Assembly: GCA_003171065.1 (NCBI GenBank)
Contig: PMXQ01000094.1
Coordinates: forward strand, 1 to 47,253
Direction: 5' to 3'
DNA length: 47,253 bases
DNA from: Chloroflexota bacterium
GTDB taxonomy: Bacteria; Chloroflexota; Limnocylindria; Limnocylindrales; CSP1-4
The notes under the pieces were generated by a model. It was given only the letters and a program-made list of their open reading frames with translations. It did no database searches and was not told where the DNA came from. Position numbers and translations under genes: made by a program. Positions 18,586 to 27,174 of this stretch are shown piece after piece. The stretch's first letter is position 1, and each line of letters begins with the position of its first letter.

Positions 18586-19482
18586 CTAGTCTTCGGCCGC
18601 TCGGTGGTAGACCCCCGCCACCCTGACCATCACGGCTTCGCGCAGAAGGGAAGCGAGCGCCGCGGCGCAGTCGGGCGACTCGGGGTCCGAGTCCATGTCC
18701 GCCCAGAAGACGTATTCCCAGCGCACGCCCCTGCTCGGTCGGGACTCCAGGCGGGACAGGTTGATCCTGCGTTCGGCGAAGCTGCCGAGGCATCGATACA
18801 GGCTGCCCGGGACGTTGCGGACCGCCCAGACCAGGGTCGTCTTCAGCGGACCCGCCAGCGCCGCCGGGACGAACCACGAATCAGGGAGAGGATCGCGCGC
18901 GAGGACGGCGAATCGAGTCCTGTTGGCGTCGCCGGTCTGGATATCGGCGGCGAGCACCTCCAGGCCGTACAACGGGGCGACCCGAGCGGATGCCACCGCG
19001 GCCCCGCCCATCTCGCGCTTCTCGGCGATGGACTTGGCCGCGCCGGCGGTGTTGTAGCTGGTCAGGACCTGCCAGGGTCGGGAGCGCAGGAACTCGTCGG
19101 CCTGGTCCAGCGCCTGAGCGATGCTGTACACGCGCTCGATCTGGTCGAGCGTCTGGCCCGGCAGAGCCAGCAGGGCAAGCCGAACCGGCACCGTCACCTC
19201 GGCCGCGATCCGGATCTCGTCGAACTTGAAGAGCAGGTCGTAGATCTCGCGCACGCTGCCGCCTGCCGATCGCTCGATGGGGACGACGCCGGCATCGACC
19301 GATCCCTCGTGCACGGCCTCGAAGACGGCCCGCCACGTCGGCATCGCAACGGCCTCCGGAGCGGCGAACGCCGACAGGACGCCGTCCTCCGAGAAGGCGC
19401 CGGGCTCTCCCTGGAACGCGACCCGTGGCGAGGCTTTGGGCGGCTCCGGCGTGGACCGAGCTCCGGACGCTGGCGATGCCAT
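18586..19482 (-). CDS. pheA: Prephenate dehydratase
   Basis: 298-residue enzyme converting prephenate to phenylpyruvate in phenylalanine synthesis. The catalytic domain shows VAFQGEPGAFSEDG, GVVPIERSAGGSV (most enzymes have Asn where this has Arg), YNTAGAAKSIAE and the TRF motif in NRTRFAVLAR. The C-terminal ACT domain carries the Phe-binding ESRP motif in LSRLESRPSRGVRWEYVFW, so feedback inhibition by phenylalanine is expected. No chorismate mutase domain is attached. A very strong GGAGGAGGG lies just before the ATG, 15 bases after the cimA stop. It is the last gene of the branched-chain amino-acid operon, an uncommon placement. Confidence 0.95.
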   Translation of the reverse strand: MASPASGARSTPEPPKASPRVAFQGEPGAFSEDGVLSAFAAPEAVAMPTWRAVFEAVHEGSVDAGVVPIERSAGGSVREIYDLLFKFDEIRIAAEVTVPVRLALLALPGQTLDQIERVYSIAQALDQADEFLRSRPWQVLTSYNTAGAAKSIAEKREMGGAAVASARVAPLYGLEVLAADIQTGDANRTRFAVLARDPLPDSWFVPAALAGPLKTTLVWAVRNVPGSLYRCLGSFAERRINLSRLESRPSRGVRWEYVFWADMDSDPESPDCAAALASLLREAVMVRVAGVYHRAAED

Positions 19483-19497
19483 CGAACCCTCCTCCAG

Positions 19498-21174
19498 CTA
19501 GTCGGGGTGCCTGGGCCGGGCGGCGCCGGCCGCCCCGTTGCCCGGCGCGGCGGTGGTGAAATGGCGCTCGTCGCGCCGCCGCACTTCCGCGCCCGTCTTC
19601 CAGATGGCGTACTCCAGTGAGTCGCACAGGGCCTGGCAGGAGGCCGCGATGATGTTCGTGCCGCTGCCCATCGTCGACCATTCCAGGACGCCGTTGGACG
19701 AATCGATGATGACCCGCGTCTGGGCACCCGTGGCTTCCTCGCTGTCGAGGATGCGGACCTTGTAGTCGACCAGGTGCACCGAGTCGAGCTGCGGGTAGAA
19801 GGCGCCCAGCGCCTTGCGCAGGGCGGTGTCCAGGGCGTTGACCGGGCCGTTGCCGTCGGCGGCGGTGTGGAGCACCTCGCCCGCGACCTCGACCTTGACC
19901 GTGGCCTCCGCGAGCAGCTCGGCGCCACCGCGCTGCTCCACCAGAACGGTGTAATCGCACAGCGCGAAGGGCGGTTCGTAGCCGGCCTTGTGGCGCTTCA
20001 CCAGCAGCTCGAACGACGCCTCGGCGCCCTCGAAGGCGAGGCCCTCGGCCTCGAGCTGCTTGATGACCAGGCTGAGCGCCTTCGGATCGACGCCGTCGAG
20101 CTGCTGGCCGAGCTGTTCCGCCCGGAGCTGCGTGTTGGCCTTGCCGCCGAGCTCGCTGACCACGAGGCGCATGACGTTGCCGACCACGGCCGGATCCACG
20201 TGCTGGTAGGCGCTGCTGGCACGGGCCGTGGCCGAGCCGTGGACGCCGCCCTTGTGGGCGAACGCCGAGCGGCCGACGTACGGCTGGTGGTCGTCGGGCG
20301 CGATGTTGACGATCTCGGCCACGTAGCGGGCCATCTCCGTCAGCTCGCCCAGGCGGCCCGAAGGGACGGGCTCGTAGCTGGTCTTGAGCTCGAGGTCGGC
20401 CAGGATGCTGACGAGATTGGCGTTTCCGCAGCGCTCGCCGTAGCCGTTGATCGTGCCCTGGACGTGACGAACGCCGTTGGCGACCGCGGCCAGCGAGTTG
20501 GCCACGGCGAGCTCCGAGTCGTTGTGGCAGTGGATGCCCCACACCACGTCCGCGGCCCCGCCGGCGTGGTCGCCAGCGAGAGCCGCCATCGTGGCCCGCA
20601 CGATCTCCACGAGTTGGTCGGTCAGTGTGCCGCCGTTGGTCTCGCACAGGACGAGGGTGCTCGCCCCGGCGTCCCTGGCCGCTCGGAGAGTGGCCAGGGC
20701 ATAGGCGGGATCGTCCTTGTAGCCGTCGAAGTAGTGCTCGGCGTCGTACACCGTCTCGCGGCCCGCGGCGGCCGCGAAGGCCACGGAGTCGGCCACCATG
20801 GCCAGGTTCTCTTCGGGCGTGGCGCCGAGGACGTCGCGGACGTGGAGCAGCCAGCTCTTGCCGAAGATCGTCACAACGGGCGTGCCGGCGGCCACGATGG
20901 CGACCAGGTTCGGGTCGGTTTCCGCGCGGTTGGAGCGGTGCCGGGTGGAGCCGAATGCCGCGAGCTTCGCGTTCTTCCATTCGATCGACCGGGCGGCCGC
21001 GAAGAAGTCGACGTCCTTGGGGTTCGAGCCGGGCCAGCCGCCTTCGATGTAAGCCAGACCGAACTCGTCGAGGCGGCGGGCGATCTTGATCTTGTCTGCC
21101 AGCGAGACGACCAGCCCTTCTCGCTGGGTGCCATCGCGCAGTGTCGTGTCGTAGAGGATTACGCGGTCGCTCAT
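19498..21174 (-). CDS. cimA: (R)-citramalate synthase
   Basis: 558-residue Claisen-condensing enzyme joining pyruvate and acetyl-CoA, the entry to the threonine-independent isoleucine route. The DRE-TIM barrel shows [15 protein letters not shown], the metal-site [26 protein letters not shown] and [14 protein letters not shown]-terminal LeuA-dimer-like regulatory domain follows (about residue 400 on). Length and motifs fit the CimA group (TIGR00977) better than 2-isopropylmalate synthase, and both are homologous. Its ATG overlaps the leuB stop (ATGA). LeuBCD can process citramalate as well as isopropylmalate, which explains the neighbourhood. Confidence 0.93.
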
Positions 21175-22391
21175 CGGGCGGCCGCCTTCGCGCCGGCGCT
21201 CGTGATCGCGGCCGCGGCGCTTCCTGCGGCGCCCGCCTCGAGGGCGGCGATCACCGCATCGGCCATGGCCTGCGTCCCGACCTTGCGCTGCCCGGGCTGC
21301 TCACCCGTGGCGGCGACGAGATCCGGAGTGCGGTAGCCGCCGGCCAGCGCCGCGCCGACCGCCGCCTCGATGGCCTCGGCGGCGGCCGCCTGGCCCAGCG
21401 ACCAGCGCAGCATCATCGCGCCGGAGAGAATCGTGGCGATCGGATTGGCGACGTCCTTGCCGGCGATGTCCGGCGCGGAGCCGTGGATCGGCTCGTACAG
21501 GCCGTGAAGCCCGTAGGCGGTCCGGCGCTCGCAGATCGAGGCGGACGGCAGCATCCCCAGCGAACCCGCCAGCACGCTGGCCTCGTCCGAGAGGATGTCG
21601 CCGAAGAGATTCTCGGTGACGATGACGTCGAAGACGGCGGGCCTCTGGATCAGCGTCATGGCGCAGGCGTCCACCAGCCGGTGCTCGACCGCGACGTCGG
21701 GGTACTCGGGCTTGACCTCTTCCACGATCGTCCGCCACAGCCGGGAGGACGACAGCACGTTGGCCTTGTCGACGCTGGTCAGCTTCTTGCGGCGCCCGCG
21801 GGCCAGCTCGAAGGCCAGCTTCACGACGCGGCGGATCTCGCCTTCCGTGTAGAAGAGCGTGTCCACGACCTCGCGGCCGCTGGGGCCCTGGCGCTGCTCG
21901 GAGGGCTTACCGAAGTAGAGCCCGCCGGTCAGCTCGCGCACGATCAGCATGTCGACGCCTTCGAGCAGCGACTCGCGGACCGGCGAGCTGCCGCGCAGCA
22001 CCGGCTGAACAGTGACCGGCCGAAGGTTGGCGTACAGGCCCAGCCCCTTGCGCAGCGCCAGGAGCGCCTGCTCGGGCCGGACCCTCGCCGTGGGATCGTC
22101 GTACTTCGGATCGCCGATCGCGCCGAAATAGACGGCGTCCGCGGCGGCGCAGGCGGCCAGGTCCTCGTCGCGCATCGGCACGCCGTAGGCGTCGATGGCC
22201 ACGCCGCCGATCAGCACCTTCTGCCACTCGAAGGCGAAACCGAAGAGCCGACCGGCGGTCTCGAGCACGCGCCGGCCGCCCGCAATCACCTCCGGGCCGA
22301 TCCCATCACCGGGAACGACGACGAGGCGGTACGTCGCCACTGGGTCGGCCGATGCCGGCGTTGGATCCAGCGGCTGGCCTGGCGTTGTCAC
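21171..22391 (-). CDS. leuB: 3-isopropylmalate dehydrogenase
   Basis: 406-residue NAD-dependent decarboxylating dehydrogenase of leucine synthesis, which also acts on beta-methylmalate in the citramalate route. Motifs: [12 protein letters not shown], the substrate-binding arginines in [31 protein letters not shown], and the metal/NAD site [10 protein letters not shown] followed by [11 protein letters not shown]- and C-termini carry Ala-rich extensions of about 20 and 30 residues compared with the usual ~355-residue enzyme. The start is a GTG at 22391 with GGAGAAG upstream. It overlaps cimA by four bases and is 144 bases from ilvC, a gap holding a strong hairpin. Confidence 0.95.
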
Positions 22392-22420
22392 GGGAGCTTC
22401 TCCACTCTTTCGGGGGCATG

Positions 22421-22442
22421 GCCGGCGGCGCGTGCCGCCGGC
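22421..22442 (-). terminator. Intra-operon hairpin between ilvC and leuB
   Basis: GCCGGCGGC (22421-22429) and GCCGCCGGC (22434-22442) form a perfect 9-bp stem with a four-base loop, flanked by near-symmetric CATG/CATG. There is no T-run. It could modulate read-through from ilvBNC to leuB-cimA-pheA or stabilise the upstream message. Confidence 0.5.
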
Positions 22443-22535
22443 GCCATGTCAGAGATGCGAACGGACCCCGGGGCCCCACCCCGGCCGGGTACGGTGGAAG
22501 GTGCGTTGTCGCTCATCGAGCACCCCCAGAGGCGA

Positions 22536-23576
22536 TCAATCCTTGGACTTGGCCGAGGCCTGCGGCTGGCCGTCGACGACTTCCACGGGATTGAGGAAAG
22601 GCATCGCCTTGCGCAGGCGGGCGCCGACCTGCTCCACCTGGTGGTCGCGACCGGCTTCGCGCATCTTCTTGAACTTCGGCAGGCCGGCCTCGTTCTCGGC
22701 GATCCAGGCCGCCGCAAAGGTGCCGTCCTGGATCTCGTGGAGGACCTTGCGCATCTCCTCGCGCACGCGGGCGTCGATGATCCGCGGGCCGGAGACATAG
22801 TCTCCGTACTCGGCGGTGTCGCTAACCGAGAAGCGCATGAAGTTCATGCCGCCGCGGTACATCAGGTCGACGATGAGCTTGAGCTCGTGCATGACCTCGA
22901 AGTAGGCCAGCTCCGGCTGGTAGCCCGCCTCGACCAGGGTCTCGAATCCGTTCTTGATCAGGCTCGTGACGCCGCCGCACAGCACGACCTGCTCGCCGAA
23001 GAGGTCAGTCTCGGTCTCTTCCTTGAACGTCGTCTCGAGAACGCCGGCTCGGGTTGCGCCGATGCCGCGCGCATATGCGAGGGTGCGGGCACGCGCGGTG
23101 CCGGTCGCGTCCTTCTCCACGGCGAAGAGAGCGGGCACGCCGCCGCCCTGCTCGAAGACCGAGCGGACGAGGTGGCCGGGGCCCTTGGGCGCCACCATGC
23201 CGACGTCGATGCCCTCACCCGGGCGGATGCGGTCGAACCGGATATTGAAGCCGTGGGCGAACATGAGCAGCTGGCCGGCGTGCATGTTCGGCTCGATCGA
23301 CGTCTCGAATACCTTCTTCTGCATGGTGTCCGGGACCAGGATCATGATCACGTCCGCGGCCTTGACCGCGTCCGCGATGTCGGCCGTCTTTAGGCCGGCT
23401 TCGTCGGCAAGGGCTCGGGCCTTGGGGTTGACCTCGACGACGGTTACGTTATAGCCCGAGTCGTGCAGGTTCTGGGCATGGGCGTGGCCCTGGCTCCCGT
23501 AGCCGATGATGGCGATCTTCTGGCCGGCGAGGGCCGTGGGATCTGCATCGTTGTCGTAGTACATGCGCGCGGTCAT
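22536..23576 (-). CDS. ilvC: Ketol-acid reductoisomerase
   Basis: 346-residue class I NADPH-dependent enzyme converting acetolactate or acetohydroxybutyrate to dihydroxy acids. The Rossmann motif [17 protein letters not shown] is near the N-terminus; [20 protein letters not shown] and the metal-ligand region [19 protein letters not shown] are intact, with the second acidic cluster in [16 protein letters not shown]. The C-terminus carries a short Lys/Gln-rich extension. Its ATG overlaps the ilvN stop by four bases, so it is co-translated with the preceding gene. Confidence 0.97.
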
Positions 23577-24214
23577 CGCTTAACTGCCTCCTCGATCGAC
23601 CCGGCACCCCGGGACATCACGACGGTACCCGAGCGGACGAGCTCCTTGATCCCGAACCCGCGAAGGAGCGCGATGATCGCGTCCACCTCGGCTTCGGTCC
23701 CGGTCGCCTCCACGATCAGCGACTCGGCCGCAAGATCCACGACTTTGGCCTTGTACATGTCTGCGATGGTCAGCACCTCGCCGCGATTGCGGTCATCGGC
23801 GCGGACCTTGATCAGCGCGATCTCGTGCTCGACGGTCGGGTCGCTCGTGACGTCCTGGACCTTGAGCACGTCGATGAGCCGGTAGAGCTGCTTGGCCGCC
23901 TGTTCGACCGCCACGTCGTCTCCGCGCAGCGTGAGCGTCATGCGGCTGACCTCCGGCTGGTCAGTGTGACTGACCGCGAGAGTCTCGATGTTGAAGCTGC
24001 GCGCCCGCATCAGGCTGGCGACGCGGTTGAGGACGCCGGGCTTGTTCAGGACGATGGCGACGAGAACGTGACGGTGCGCCTCGCCGTGGCCGGGCAGAGC
24101 CCGCGCGGGCGGCGCGGTGTGGGCCGGCGCCGGGTGGGATGCGGCCGCGCCACCCACGGCCGGTGCGCCGCCTGGATCGGCGCTGCCGCCGGGGGTCGAA
24201 CCGGTGGGGCTCAT
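23573..24214 (-). CDS. ilvN: Acetolactate synthase regulatory (small) subunit
   Basis: 213-residue regulatory subunit that binds valine and activates IlvB. After a Pro/Ala/Gly-rich N-terminal extension of about 48 residues comes the ACT domain [19 protein letters not shown] followed by [12 protein letters not shown]. The C-terminal domain has [15 protein letters not shown] and ends near [12 protein letters not shown]. Typical small subunits are ~160-170 residues, so the extra length is all at the N-terminus. ATG overlaps the ilvB stop (ATGA) and the gene overlaps ilvC the same way. A longer open frame upstream is a shadow of ilvB. Confidence 0.94.
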
Positions 24215-26259
24215 TGGTTGGGCTCCTCGAACTGTTCCTCGAGCAGATCCGACAGGCCCTTGCCGGCCGGCATCATCGGGAAGACGTTCTGTTCCTGGGC
24301 GATGCAGAACTCGATCAGCGCCGGGCCGTCCACGGCGCGAGCCGAAGCGATTGCGGCGTCGACCTGCTCGGGTGAGTCGGCGCGGAAGGCCGCGACGCCG
24401 TACGCCTCCGCGAGCTTGCACCAGTCGGGGCCGAGCAGATGCGAGGAATGGTAGTTGCCTGCGTAGACGAGTTCCTGCCACTGGCGGACCATGCCCAGCT
24501 TGTGGTTGTTGAGAAGCGCGATCCGAAGCGGGATGTGCTCCTGGACCAGGGTCATCAACTCCTGCACAGTCATCTGCAGGCCGCCGTCGCCGACGATGGA
24601 CCACGTTTCCTTGTCGGGCCGTCCCACGGCGGCGCCCATTCCGGCCGGCAGGCCGTAGCCCATCGTCCCGAGCCCGCCGGAGCTGATGTGGCTGTTCGGA
24701 CGGCGGAAGCCGCCGTAGCGGGCCGTCCACATCTGGTTCTGGCCCACGTCGGCGACGATGGTCGCGTCGTGTCCAGTGGCCTCGCCGATGCGACTGACCA
24801 CGAAGTCGGCCGAGAGCTGGCCGTTGCGCCACGCCCCCGAGCCGTGCCACGGTGTCTTCTGCGATTCGGCCCGCCAGGCGGCGATCTCCGCCAGGTAAGG
24901 GGCGCGCGTTTCCGGCGCCACGGCCTCGACCTGCGGGATGAGGGCCCGCAGGACGCGCTTGACGTCGCCCACGATGGGGATCTCCACGGCGACGTTCTTG
25001 CCGATTTCGGCCGGGTCGATGTCGACATGGACGATCCGGGCGTAGGGCGCGAAGGTGGGCACGTGGCCGGTGACCCGGTCGTCGAACCGCATCCCCAGGG
25101 CGATGAGCAGGTCCGCGGACTGGATCGTCTTATTGACGTGCTTCCAGCCGTGCATGCCGACGAAGCCCAGGCTGAGCGGGTTCGTCTCGTCCATGGCGCT
25201 GACGCCCAGGAGCGTGTGCGCCACGGGTATCTGGGCCTTCTCGGCCAGCTCTCGCAGCTCTTCGGTGGCGTCGGCGATCAGGACTCCGTGGCCGGCCAGG
25301 ATGACCGGCCGTTCGGACCTCGCGATCTCCTGGGCCGCCAGCCTGATCTGGCGGGGATGACCCTCGAAGGTGGGCTTGAAGCCGGGCAGGTCGACGCTGT
25401 CCGGGTGCTCGGCCGAGCACTCCCCCATCAGGGCGTCCTTGGTCAGGTCGATATGGACCGGGCCCGGACGGCCGGTACGGGCGATGTGGAAGGCTTCGGC
25501 GAAGACGCGGGGAATCTCGTTGGCGTCGCGGACCAGGTAGTTGTGCTTGGTGCAGGGCAGGGTGATACCCGTGATGTCGATCTCCTGGAAGGCGTCCTTG
25601 CCGAGCAGCGAGCCGACGACATTGCCGGTGATAGCCACGATCGGGACCGAGTCCAGCATGGCGTTGCCAATACCCGTAACCAGGTTCGTGGCGCCCGGGC
25701 CCGAGGTGGCAAGGCAGACGCCGACCTTGCCCGTGGCGCGGGCATAACCTTCGGCGGCGTGGGCGCCACCCTGCTCGTGTCGGACGAGGATGTGGCGCAG
25801 CTCCGGGTAGTCGCCGAGGACATCGTAGAAAGGCAGGACGACGCCGCCCGGATACCCGAAGAAGACCTCCACGCCCTGGCGCAGCAGCGCCTCGCAGACC
25901 GCATCCGCGCCGATGCGAGGCCGCTTCGCGCCGCGCTCGGCCAGGCTCTTGATGTGGAGGCGGTGGCTGTCGGTCAGCATCTCGCGCCGGCCGGCCGAGA
26001 TCGCATCTGCGCGCGGCGTTCCGGCGCCCGGCATGTGGTTGATGCGCCCGCGCTCGGCAGCGGAGTCTCCGGCTGCGTCGCCGGTGCCACCGGCCGTGCC
26101 CCCGGTGCCCTGGGCCGCGCCGCCGGCCCATCTGGCCGCCCCGGCGCCCTGGGCCGCGCCGCCGGCCCATCTGGCCGCCCCGGCGCCGCCGCCCGCCCCC
26201 TGCGTCTTGCCCGATGTCGCCGTCGGCGAACGGCCCGGTCCGTCGTCCGTGGTCCCCAT
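24211..26259 (-). CDS. ilvB: Acetolactate synthase catalytic (large) subunit
   Basis: 682-residue ThDP-dependent enzyme, first of the common branched-chain pathway. The catalytic region begins near residue 112 with ADAVCEALLRQGVEVFFGYP; the ThDP-activating Glu is in RHEQGGAHAAEGYA. FAD-domain VHVDIDPAEIGKN and the ThDP motif GDGGLQMTVQEL with a later NN are intact. The first ~110 residues are low complexity, including a duplicated GAARWAGGAAQG block, and exceed the usual start. ATG 26259 is preferred because GGAAGG lies about eight bases upstream; the alternative ATG at 25980 would give a family-like length. It follows a leader ORF and terminator. Confidence 0.95.
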   Translation of the reverse strand: MGTTDDGPGRSPTATSGKTQGAGGGAGAARWAGGAAQGAGAARWAGGAAQGTGGTAGGTGDAAGDSAAERGRINHMPGAGTPRADAISAGRREMLTDSHRLHIKSLAERGAKRPRIGADAVCEALLRQGVEVFFGYPGGVVLPFYDVLGDYPELRHILVRHEQGGAHAAEGYARATGKVGVCLATSGPGATNLVTGIGNAMLDSVPIVAITGNVVGSLLGKDAFQEIDITGITLPCTKHNYLVRDANEIPRVFAEAFHIARTGRPGPVHIDLTKDALMGECSAEHPDSVDLPGFKPTFEGHPRQIRLAAQEIARSERPVILAGHGVLIADATEELRELAEKAQIPVAHTLLGVSAMDETNPLSLGFVGMHGWKHVNKTIQSADLLIALGMRFDDRVTGHVPTFAPYARIVHVDIDPAEIGKNVAVEIPIVGDVKRVLRALIPQVEAVAPETRAPYLAEIAAWRAESQKTPWHGSGAWRNGQLSADFVVSRIGEATGHDATIVADVGQNQMWTARYGGFRRPNSHISSGGLGTMGYGLPAGMGAAVGRPDKETWSIVGDGGLQMTVQELMTLVQEHIPLRIALLNNHKLGMVRQWQELVYAGNYHSSHLLGPDWCKLAEAYGVAAFRADSPEQVDAAIASARAVDGPALIEFCIAQEQNVFPMMPAGKGLSDLLEEQFEEPNQ
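26104..26187 (-). repeat. 39-bp tandem repeat in the 5' end of ilvB
   Basis: About 2.1 copies with period 39; the clearest unit is 26134-26172. It encodes the duplicated Ala/Gly-rich block in the N-terminal extension of IlvB. One mismatch separates the copies over about 30 bases. Confidence 0.85.
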
Positions 26260-26342: not shown

Positions 26343-26370
26343 AAAAAACCCTCGCCTGCCGGCGAGGGTT
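26343..26370 (-). terminator. Intrinsic terminator/attenuator ahead of ilvB
   Basis: On the minus strand, AACCCTCGCC (26370-26361), loop GGCA, GGCGAGGGTT (26356-26347), then a run of six T. This is a perfect 10-bp stem with a U-tract. It lies 23 bases after the stop of a branched-chain-rich leader ORF and about 85 bases before ilvB, which is the layout of a peptide attenuator. Confidence 0.88.
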
Positions 26371-26392
26371 CTGGTCGTTCGGGCTTGCGTCG

Positions 26393-26599
26393 TCAGCGCT
26401 TGTCCCTGCGTCCAGCCTCCCGCCGGGAGCCGGTAATGAGTACGAATACGCGCTCAATACCGAGCTCGAGGGTGCGAAGTAGACCGAGGAGGGACACGTC
26501 GACCAGGCCGAGGTTCTCGACGGGCACCTGCACGCGACGACCGTCCGACCTGATGGCGACGGCGACGTGGCGGCGGTTCCGGCTGTCGAACAGACCCAA
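26393..26599 (-). CDS. 68-codon leader ORF of the ilv operon (candidate attenuator peptide)
   Basis: TTG start at 26599 with a perfect GGAGG six bases upstream (26610-26606). The 68-residue product has 15 Leu/Val/Ile among residues 30-55, including LGLVDVSLLGLLRTLELGI and VFVLI. Its stop is 23 bases before an intrinsic terminator. A segment just after the VFVLI codons contains CCGGCG (complement of 26421-26426) that can pair with CGCCGG in the terminator's 5' side (26359-26364), so ribosome stalling could favour antitermination. Known leader peptides are shorter (15-35 codons), so a small structural protein is the alternative. No T-box sequence was found. Confidence 0.55.
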   Translation of the reverse strand: MGLFDSRNRRHVAVAIRSDGRRVQVPVENLGLVDVSLLGLLRTLELGIERVFVLITGSRREAGRRDKR

Positions 26600-26653
26600 C
26601 CTGGTCCTCCGTAACAGCGACTACACCGGCTCCTGGTCGAGCGGTGTCTGGCG

Positions 26654-26662
26654 AGTGTATCA
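26654..26662 (-). promoter_or_regulatory. Candidate extended -10 promoter of the ilv leader transcript
   Basis: Minus-strand TGATACACT matches an extended -10 element and lies about 55-63 bases upstream of the leader start codon. A TTGACC occurs only eight bases further upstream, too close to act as a normal -35. Confidence 0.35.
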
Positions 26663-26912: not shown

Positions 26913-27174
26913 TGCCCACCTGGTGGGCATATCGACGTGACCGGACGGCGGAGGTTCGCCACGACGGTCGATTCTGCCCACCAACAGGGCAACTCCGACC
27001 GCAACGACTCCCGGGGATCCGACGGCGCCCGCCGGTGTCGAACGTGCCCAAGATTCCGGGCATATCCGACGCAACGGCCCAGCCGTCAGCCGGCGCTGAT
27101 CCTATATGCCCACCTGATGGGTAATCGGCCCCGCCTGAGCAGCCCGGTCAAGGGCTCTGCCCACCGGTTGGGCA
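26913..27174. repeat. Array of five ~17-bp palindromes with TGCCCA...GGGCA ends
   Basis: Sites: TGCCCACCTGGTGGGCA (26913-26929, perfect 8-bp arms), TGCCCACCAACAGGGCA (26975-26991), TGCCCAAGATTCCGGGCA (27045-27062), TGCCCACCTGATGGGTA (27107-27123), TGCCCACCGGTTGGGCA (27158-27174). Start-to-start distances are 62, 70, 62 and 51. Short flanks of the type ATC-GAC follow several copies. The array fills the gap between the MmpL stop and the ilv promoter region and looks like a multi-site operator. Copies are too diverged and too short for a CRISPR. The rest of the 26600-27215 gap shows nothing else recognisable. Confidence 0.75.

Follow-up and report, generated by a model that had tools for sequence, protein, structure and literature searches.

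A long leader peptide with a conserved N-terminal segment in a predicted ribosome-mediated attenuator of the ilvB operon in one Chloroflexota family

Leader-peptide attenuators of branched-chain amino acid (BCAA) operons are known or predicted in enterobacteria. They are likewise known or predicted in Actinobacteria (PMC1262725), in Corynebacterium, where the upstream open reading frame (uORF) comprises 10–24 codons (PMC10272879), and in Staphylococcus, where the peptide has 26 aa (PMC5794164). The leader peptides of attenuators are usually under 20 residues long and are generally held to be nonfunctional in trans (PMC7298713). Such predictions can fail, since regulation was unaffected by mutation of the control codons in the ilvB leader of Streptomyces coelicolor, according to a passage citing that work in PMC1262725. 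For the Chloroflexota (Chloroflexi), we found no report of an attenuator of this kind in the open literature searched, which is not proof of its absence.

Here, we describe a putative switch placed 5′ of a BCAA operon in an uncultured Chloroflexota lineage. The window, i.e. the whole 47,253-nt stretch of DNA analyzed, derives from a 3.0-Mb draft genome whose closest named relatives are Chloroflexi MAGs, and the genes 3′ of the leader follow the order ilvB-ilvN-ilvC-leuB-cimA-pheA (Table 1). Our analysis makes it highly probable that the locus is a ribosome-mediated transcription attenuator of ilvBNC-leuB-cimA-pheA and that its leader peptide additionally carries an N-terminal segment under protein-level selection; the stalling, termination, and regulation in cells are what the sequences and the folding models predict.

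Table 1. Positions of the leader, its predicted RNA elements, and the downstream genes in the window
Feature	Position	Strand	Remark
Intrinsic terminator, 10-bp stem, 4-nt loop, six U	26343..26370	-	
Predicted antiterminator 3′ strand CTCGCCGG, terminator 5′ arm and loop	26359..26366	-	
Leader ORF, 68 codons, TTG start, TGA stop	26393..26599	-	
Local hairpin CUCCC-GGC-GGGAG	26417..26429	-	Predicted to compete with the antiterminator
Predicted antiterminator 5′ strand CCGGCGGG, codons Ser58–Glu61	26419..26426	-	Beyond VFVLI
Control region, residues 30–55, 15 Leu/Val/Ile codons, several rare (GTA, CTA, CTT, ATT)	26435..26512	-	
N-terminal conserved core, residues 9–26 (RRHVAVAIRSDGRRVQVP)	26522..26575	-	pN/pS 0.37, ilvB-like pS
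Shine-Dalgarno (SD) GGAGG of the leader ORF	26606..26610	-	Six bases upstream of the start
-10-like promoter element TACACT	26654..26659	-	-10-like hexamer 5′ of the ORF in 80/80 homologous leaders
ilvB, acetolactate synthase large subunit	24211..26259	-	First gene of the operon predicted to be controlled
ilvN, ilvC, leuB, cimA, pheA (remaining operon genes)	18586..24103	-	ilvN start approximate

The leader locus and its recurrence in one family

Translation of the leader ORF from the minus strand gives MGLFDSRNRRHVAVAIRSDGRRVQVPVENLGLVDVSLLGLLRTLELGIERVFVLITGSRREAGRRDKR. The initial annotation of this DNA had called a TTG-started ORF with a perfect ribosome site, which is borne out by the GGAGG ahead of the 68 codons, and its count of Leu/Val/Ile in residues 30–55 is matched exactly, at 15. 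Transcription is estimated to begin ~7 nt downstream of TACACT. Eighty homologous leaders, all from one bacterial family, were aligned; each of the 80 has an ORF with a start codon, and in 70 an SD-like motif precedes it. An internal start that would yield a short, classic leader was rejected, as start codons occur there in 10 of the 80 leaders and an SD in only one. In the window's family, some ten leaders resemble those of the sister families, their ORF apparently starting very near the presumed transcription start.

The leader ORF was recovered by protein search in 18 of 20 same-genus genomes and by profile search in ~80 of the 107 genomes of the family, where most of the ORF-less genomes that were checked have no detectable ilvB or a contig end that cuts the region upstream of ilvB. 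Outside the family, a search of 177 genomes of the class returned no more than two partial matches, both borderline (E 0.003 and 0.01), and a sample of 400 from the phylum returned no match at E 0.001. A terminator lies 20–34 nt past the stop codon in all 80 leaders, and ilvB is the next gene in all 77 whose contig reaches that far. This recurrence of ORF, -10 element, terminator, and antiterminator at 80 loci of one family reveals an architecture that exceeds chance. The ORF and stems, which the initial annotation had proposed to look for in related genomes along with the codon cluster, recur at these loci, and the ORF and the terminator, whose separate fates it had named as counter-evidence, stay together in 80 of 80.

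Several further features were observed around the locus. A tandem repeat (ARWAGGAAQGAG-like, window 26100–26200) lies within the N-terminal extension of ilvB, and this extension differs in length among relatives. A 17-bp palindrome like TGCCCACCNGGTGGGCA occurs four times between the ilv promoter and an MMPL transporter gene (window 26913–27174); these copies recur in similar places at locus L005 and partly at L006 and L016, are absent from most relatives, and may represent operator sites or a dispersed repeat. One genome of the set (G064) holds two leader-ilvB copies (L053 and L056) on different contigs, reflecting either a duplication or a mixed bin.

Control codons and the predicted terminator–antiterminator switch

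Half of the control stretch (50%) consists of Leu, Val, or Ile, with a strong bias toward the rare codons GTA, CTT/CTA, and ATT. Within the Leu-rich stretch, Val is encoded by GTA at 51 of the 75 positions in the genus and at 59 of the 120 outside it, compared with 3 of 385 and 6 of 1235, respectively, in ilvB. Codons ending in A or T make up 45% of the Leu/Val/Ile codons of the control stretch vs 11% of its other residues, and 4.4% and 8.3%, respectively, in ilvB; the bias thus targets the Leu/Val/Ile codons and not general base composition. The codons of LITGSRRE (residues 54–61) are frozen at synonymous sites, with a within-genus pS of 0.027 vs 0.44 for ilvB and, in addition, a codon identity of 0.85–0.92 vs 0.62–0.66, a pattern of constraint at the RNA level.

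The stop codon is followed by 22 nt and then by AACCCTCGCC-GGCA-GGCGAGGGTT and six T, so that the 10-bp stem with six U noted initially is present shortly after the ORF. The stem is predicted at -19.6 kcal/mol (z = -5.1), with none of 200 shuffles equally good; a generic terminator scan did not pick it up, which is a limit of that scan. The segment past VFVLI can, as first proposed, pair with the 5′ side of the terminator, CCGGCGGG (26426–26419) with CTCGCCGG (26366–26359). Across the alignment, 90% of cells are paired in this register vs 41–65% in slid registers, while a formal covariation test was marginal because the stem hardly varies.

Taken together, these elements suggest a switch in which the leader ORF would be translated while being transcribed. 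A shortage of charged Leu, Val, or Ile tRNA would stall the ribosome at the rare Leu/Val/Ile codons of residues 30–55, leaving the Ser-Arg-Arg-Glu codons past the last Ile free to pair with the terminator 5′ arm, and with this antiterminator formed the polymerase would read through into ilvB. With an ample supply of these tRNAs, the ribosome would move across the Ser-Arg-Arg-Glu segment, the CUCCC/GGGAG hairpin could reform behind it, and the terminator would then end transcription. To simulate stalls, we computed partition functions for only the RNA that lies ahead of the ribosome, with a 12-nt footprint and before the terminator 3′ arm is made. For all tested stalls as far as the last Ile, the probability of the antiterminator was 0.75–0.92, and at the last several codons 99% of the leaders exceeded 0.5; one codon past the last Ile it was 0.09, and beyond that 0, the codon at which the switch flips depending on the assumed footprint. 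Once the ribosome has reached the stop codon, the antiterminator strand is exposed behind it, and pairing would have to be prevented by the local hairpin or by timing. The CUCCC-GGC-GGGAG hairpin, which occupies the same strand as the antiterminator, is the likely competitor once the ribosome has passed. A larger hairpin over codons LGIERVFVLITG was considered as an anti-antiterminator and was not kept, as it is compatible with the antiterminator in the window.

The locus thus has a leader ORF before a biosynthetic operon, rare and enriched control codons, an intrinsic terminator, and, by register pairing and stall simulation, a mutually exclusive antiterminator that a stalled ribosome would free. 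It departs from the classic ilv or leu leader of ~15–40 residues, in which nothing outside the control codons is conserved, in having 60–77 aa and a conserved N-terminus. The initial annotation's reading as a peptide attenuator is computationally well supported by the joint conservation of ORF, terminator, and ilvB, the rare codons, the frozen antiterminator strand, the stall geometry, and the short leaders of the sister families (below).

The N-terminal segment and its possible roles

The unusual length, in which the initial annotation had seen a hint of a variant mechanism, can be traced to a concrete cause, namely an added N-terminal segment of ~28 residues (RRxVAVxVxxDGRRVxVP) that is conserved as protein. 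In its core, pS (0.41) and codon identity are both as in ilvB, the Gly of the DGRR motif is invariant, and pN/pS, taken from simple pairwise counts with bootstrapping over columns and no phylogenetic model, is 0.37 (95% 0.20–0.62) in the genus and 0.55 (0.36–0.75) elsewhere, a weaker constraint than that on ilvB itself (0.18 and 0.32). Because its amino acid sequence is preserved even though its synonymous sites have drifted as in ilvB, the core is selected at the protein level, and since internal in-frame starts are rare, the segment would be translated before the control codons. A synonymous-site pattern typical of an independent protein had been named at the outset as evidence against attenuation; we found it in the N-terminal part only, and as the C-terminal half displays the opposite pattern, attenuation is not refuted.

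The Gly of DGRR lies 27–36 residues ahead of the last control Ile in 79 of the 80 leaders, most commonly 35. This spacing roughly equals the length of the ribosomal exit tunnel, so that the N-terminal segment would be emerging when the switch is decided. Profile searches of the leader peptide against Pfam, NCBIfam, and PDB gave nothing significant, and an AlphaFold model from 79 sequences was of low confidence, with strands at residues 11–15 and 21–25 (pLDDT 56). In one genome (G130), an ORF before pheA retains the core, has an altered Leu-rich half, and is not followed by a terminator (L089, 389–1628); in another (G106), a weaker match to the core occurs in an orphan ORF from which the attenuator half is absent. 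Neither ilvB nor ilvC was found in these two genomes, both of which are incomplete, and the ilvC search had no positive control; the two cases are suggestive of a core that persists without the ilv genes.

Comparison with the sister families of the class, which mostly have ordinary short ilvB leaders of 24–39 aa, places this segment in context. The leaders of family f2 have 37–39 aa and end in LLIQPRRG or similar, those of f3 have 24–28 aa, and the single leader of f4 has 24–47 aa, its start being uncertain. All resemble the window's leader in their place before ilvB, their Leu/Val/Ile-rich end, and their terminator, and differ from it in being shorter and in lacking the N-terminal DGRR segment. 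In f2 and f3 examples inspected by eye, the segment after the Leu/Val/Ile run is complementary to the terminator arm, in f3 with a different stem sequence, which is better support for the predicted architecture than the within-family covariation. Given these short leaders, the N-terminal segment would most simply be an addition in the window's family, loss elsewhere being the alternative. Several sister-family leaders (L095, L097, L098, and L100–L110) appear to start very near the presumed transcription start and may be translated from leaderless mRNA.

These findings suggest that the N-terminal segment would most likely function as a peptide, whether as part of the nascent chain near the ribosome exit or after release as a small protein. 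We tentatively go one step further, with somewhat less than even confidence, to a dual element gained in one family, in which the C-terminal codons would serve as the RNA switch and RRxVAVxVxxDGRRVxVP would be a functional protein part at the ribosome exit or in trans. A simpler account, which we consider unlikely though deserving of attention, is an attenuator whose long N-terminus is merely a spacer or initiation region with no function as a peptide. The attenuator half alone accounts for regulation, the sister families manage without the extension, and no confident fold was predicted, all as this account would have it; a spacer, however, has no need of a DGRR motif or of conserved amino acids over drifting synonymous sites, and in G130 and G106 the core survives where the attenuator half does not. 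The selection acting on the N-terminus as protein, together with the core-bearing ORFs of these two genomes, could also point to a stand-alone small-protein gene that has a terminator of its own, precedes the ilv operon by chance, and involves no attenuation. This we judge very improbable, since the C-terminal half combines rare Leu/Val/Ile codons with a frozen strand complementary to the terminator, ilvB follows in 77 of the 77 loci that reach it, and leader peptides occupy the corresponding position in the sister families. Finally, a metabolite riboswitch, T-box, or protein-bound leader with an incidental ORF is scarcely credible: some bacterial ilvB genes are under ppGpp riboswitches (PMC10272879), but conservation here is organized by codons, no Rfam family matched the window at its gathering score, and the T-box, ppGpp, and ilvB families were absent from the leader even at E values up to 5.

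Comparison with known systems

The predicted switch is a known mechanism in a new lineage, and its new feature is a domain within the attenuator peptide that is conserved at the protein level. It would extend BCAA attenuation through one Chloroflexota class, with a size series of 24, 37–39, and 60–77 residues in which the window's peptide is about two to three times the length of its relatives, owing to the extra N-terminal segment. If true, a leader of which one half is frozen as RNA and the other conserved as protein would provide an uncomplicated system in which to test whether leader peptides can have functions in their own right.

A precedent for an attenuator leader peptide acting in trans is peTrpL of Sinorhizobium meliloti (PMC7298713), a Trp leader of 14 aa and unrelated sequence, whose trans role is experimental, whereas in the window's family such a role is only suggested by selection. 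The ilv-leu peptide of Staphylococcus aureus (PMC5794164) shares with the window's leader the conserved Ile/Leu codons and a terminator before a BCAA operon, there with mutant support; it differs in having 26 aa and a terminator 52 nt past the stop, in preceding ilvD, and in working with CodY. The ilvBNC uORF attenuator of Corynebacterium (ilvB-II motif; PMC10272879; PMC11857589) belongs to another phylum, its motif has no Rfam match in the window's leader, and its peptide usually has 15–17 residues (10–24), vs 60–77 here, with no conserved N-terminal protein segment reported. It is alike in its Ile/Leu/Val-rich uORF, its terminator and antiterminator, and its position directly 5′ of ilvBNC.
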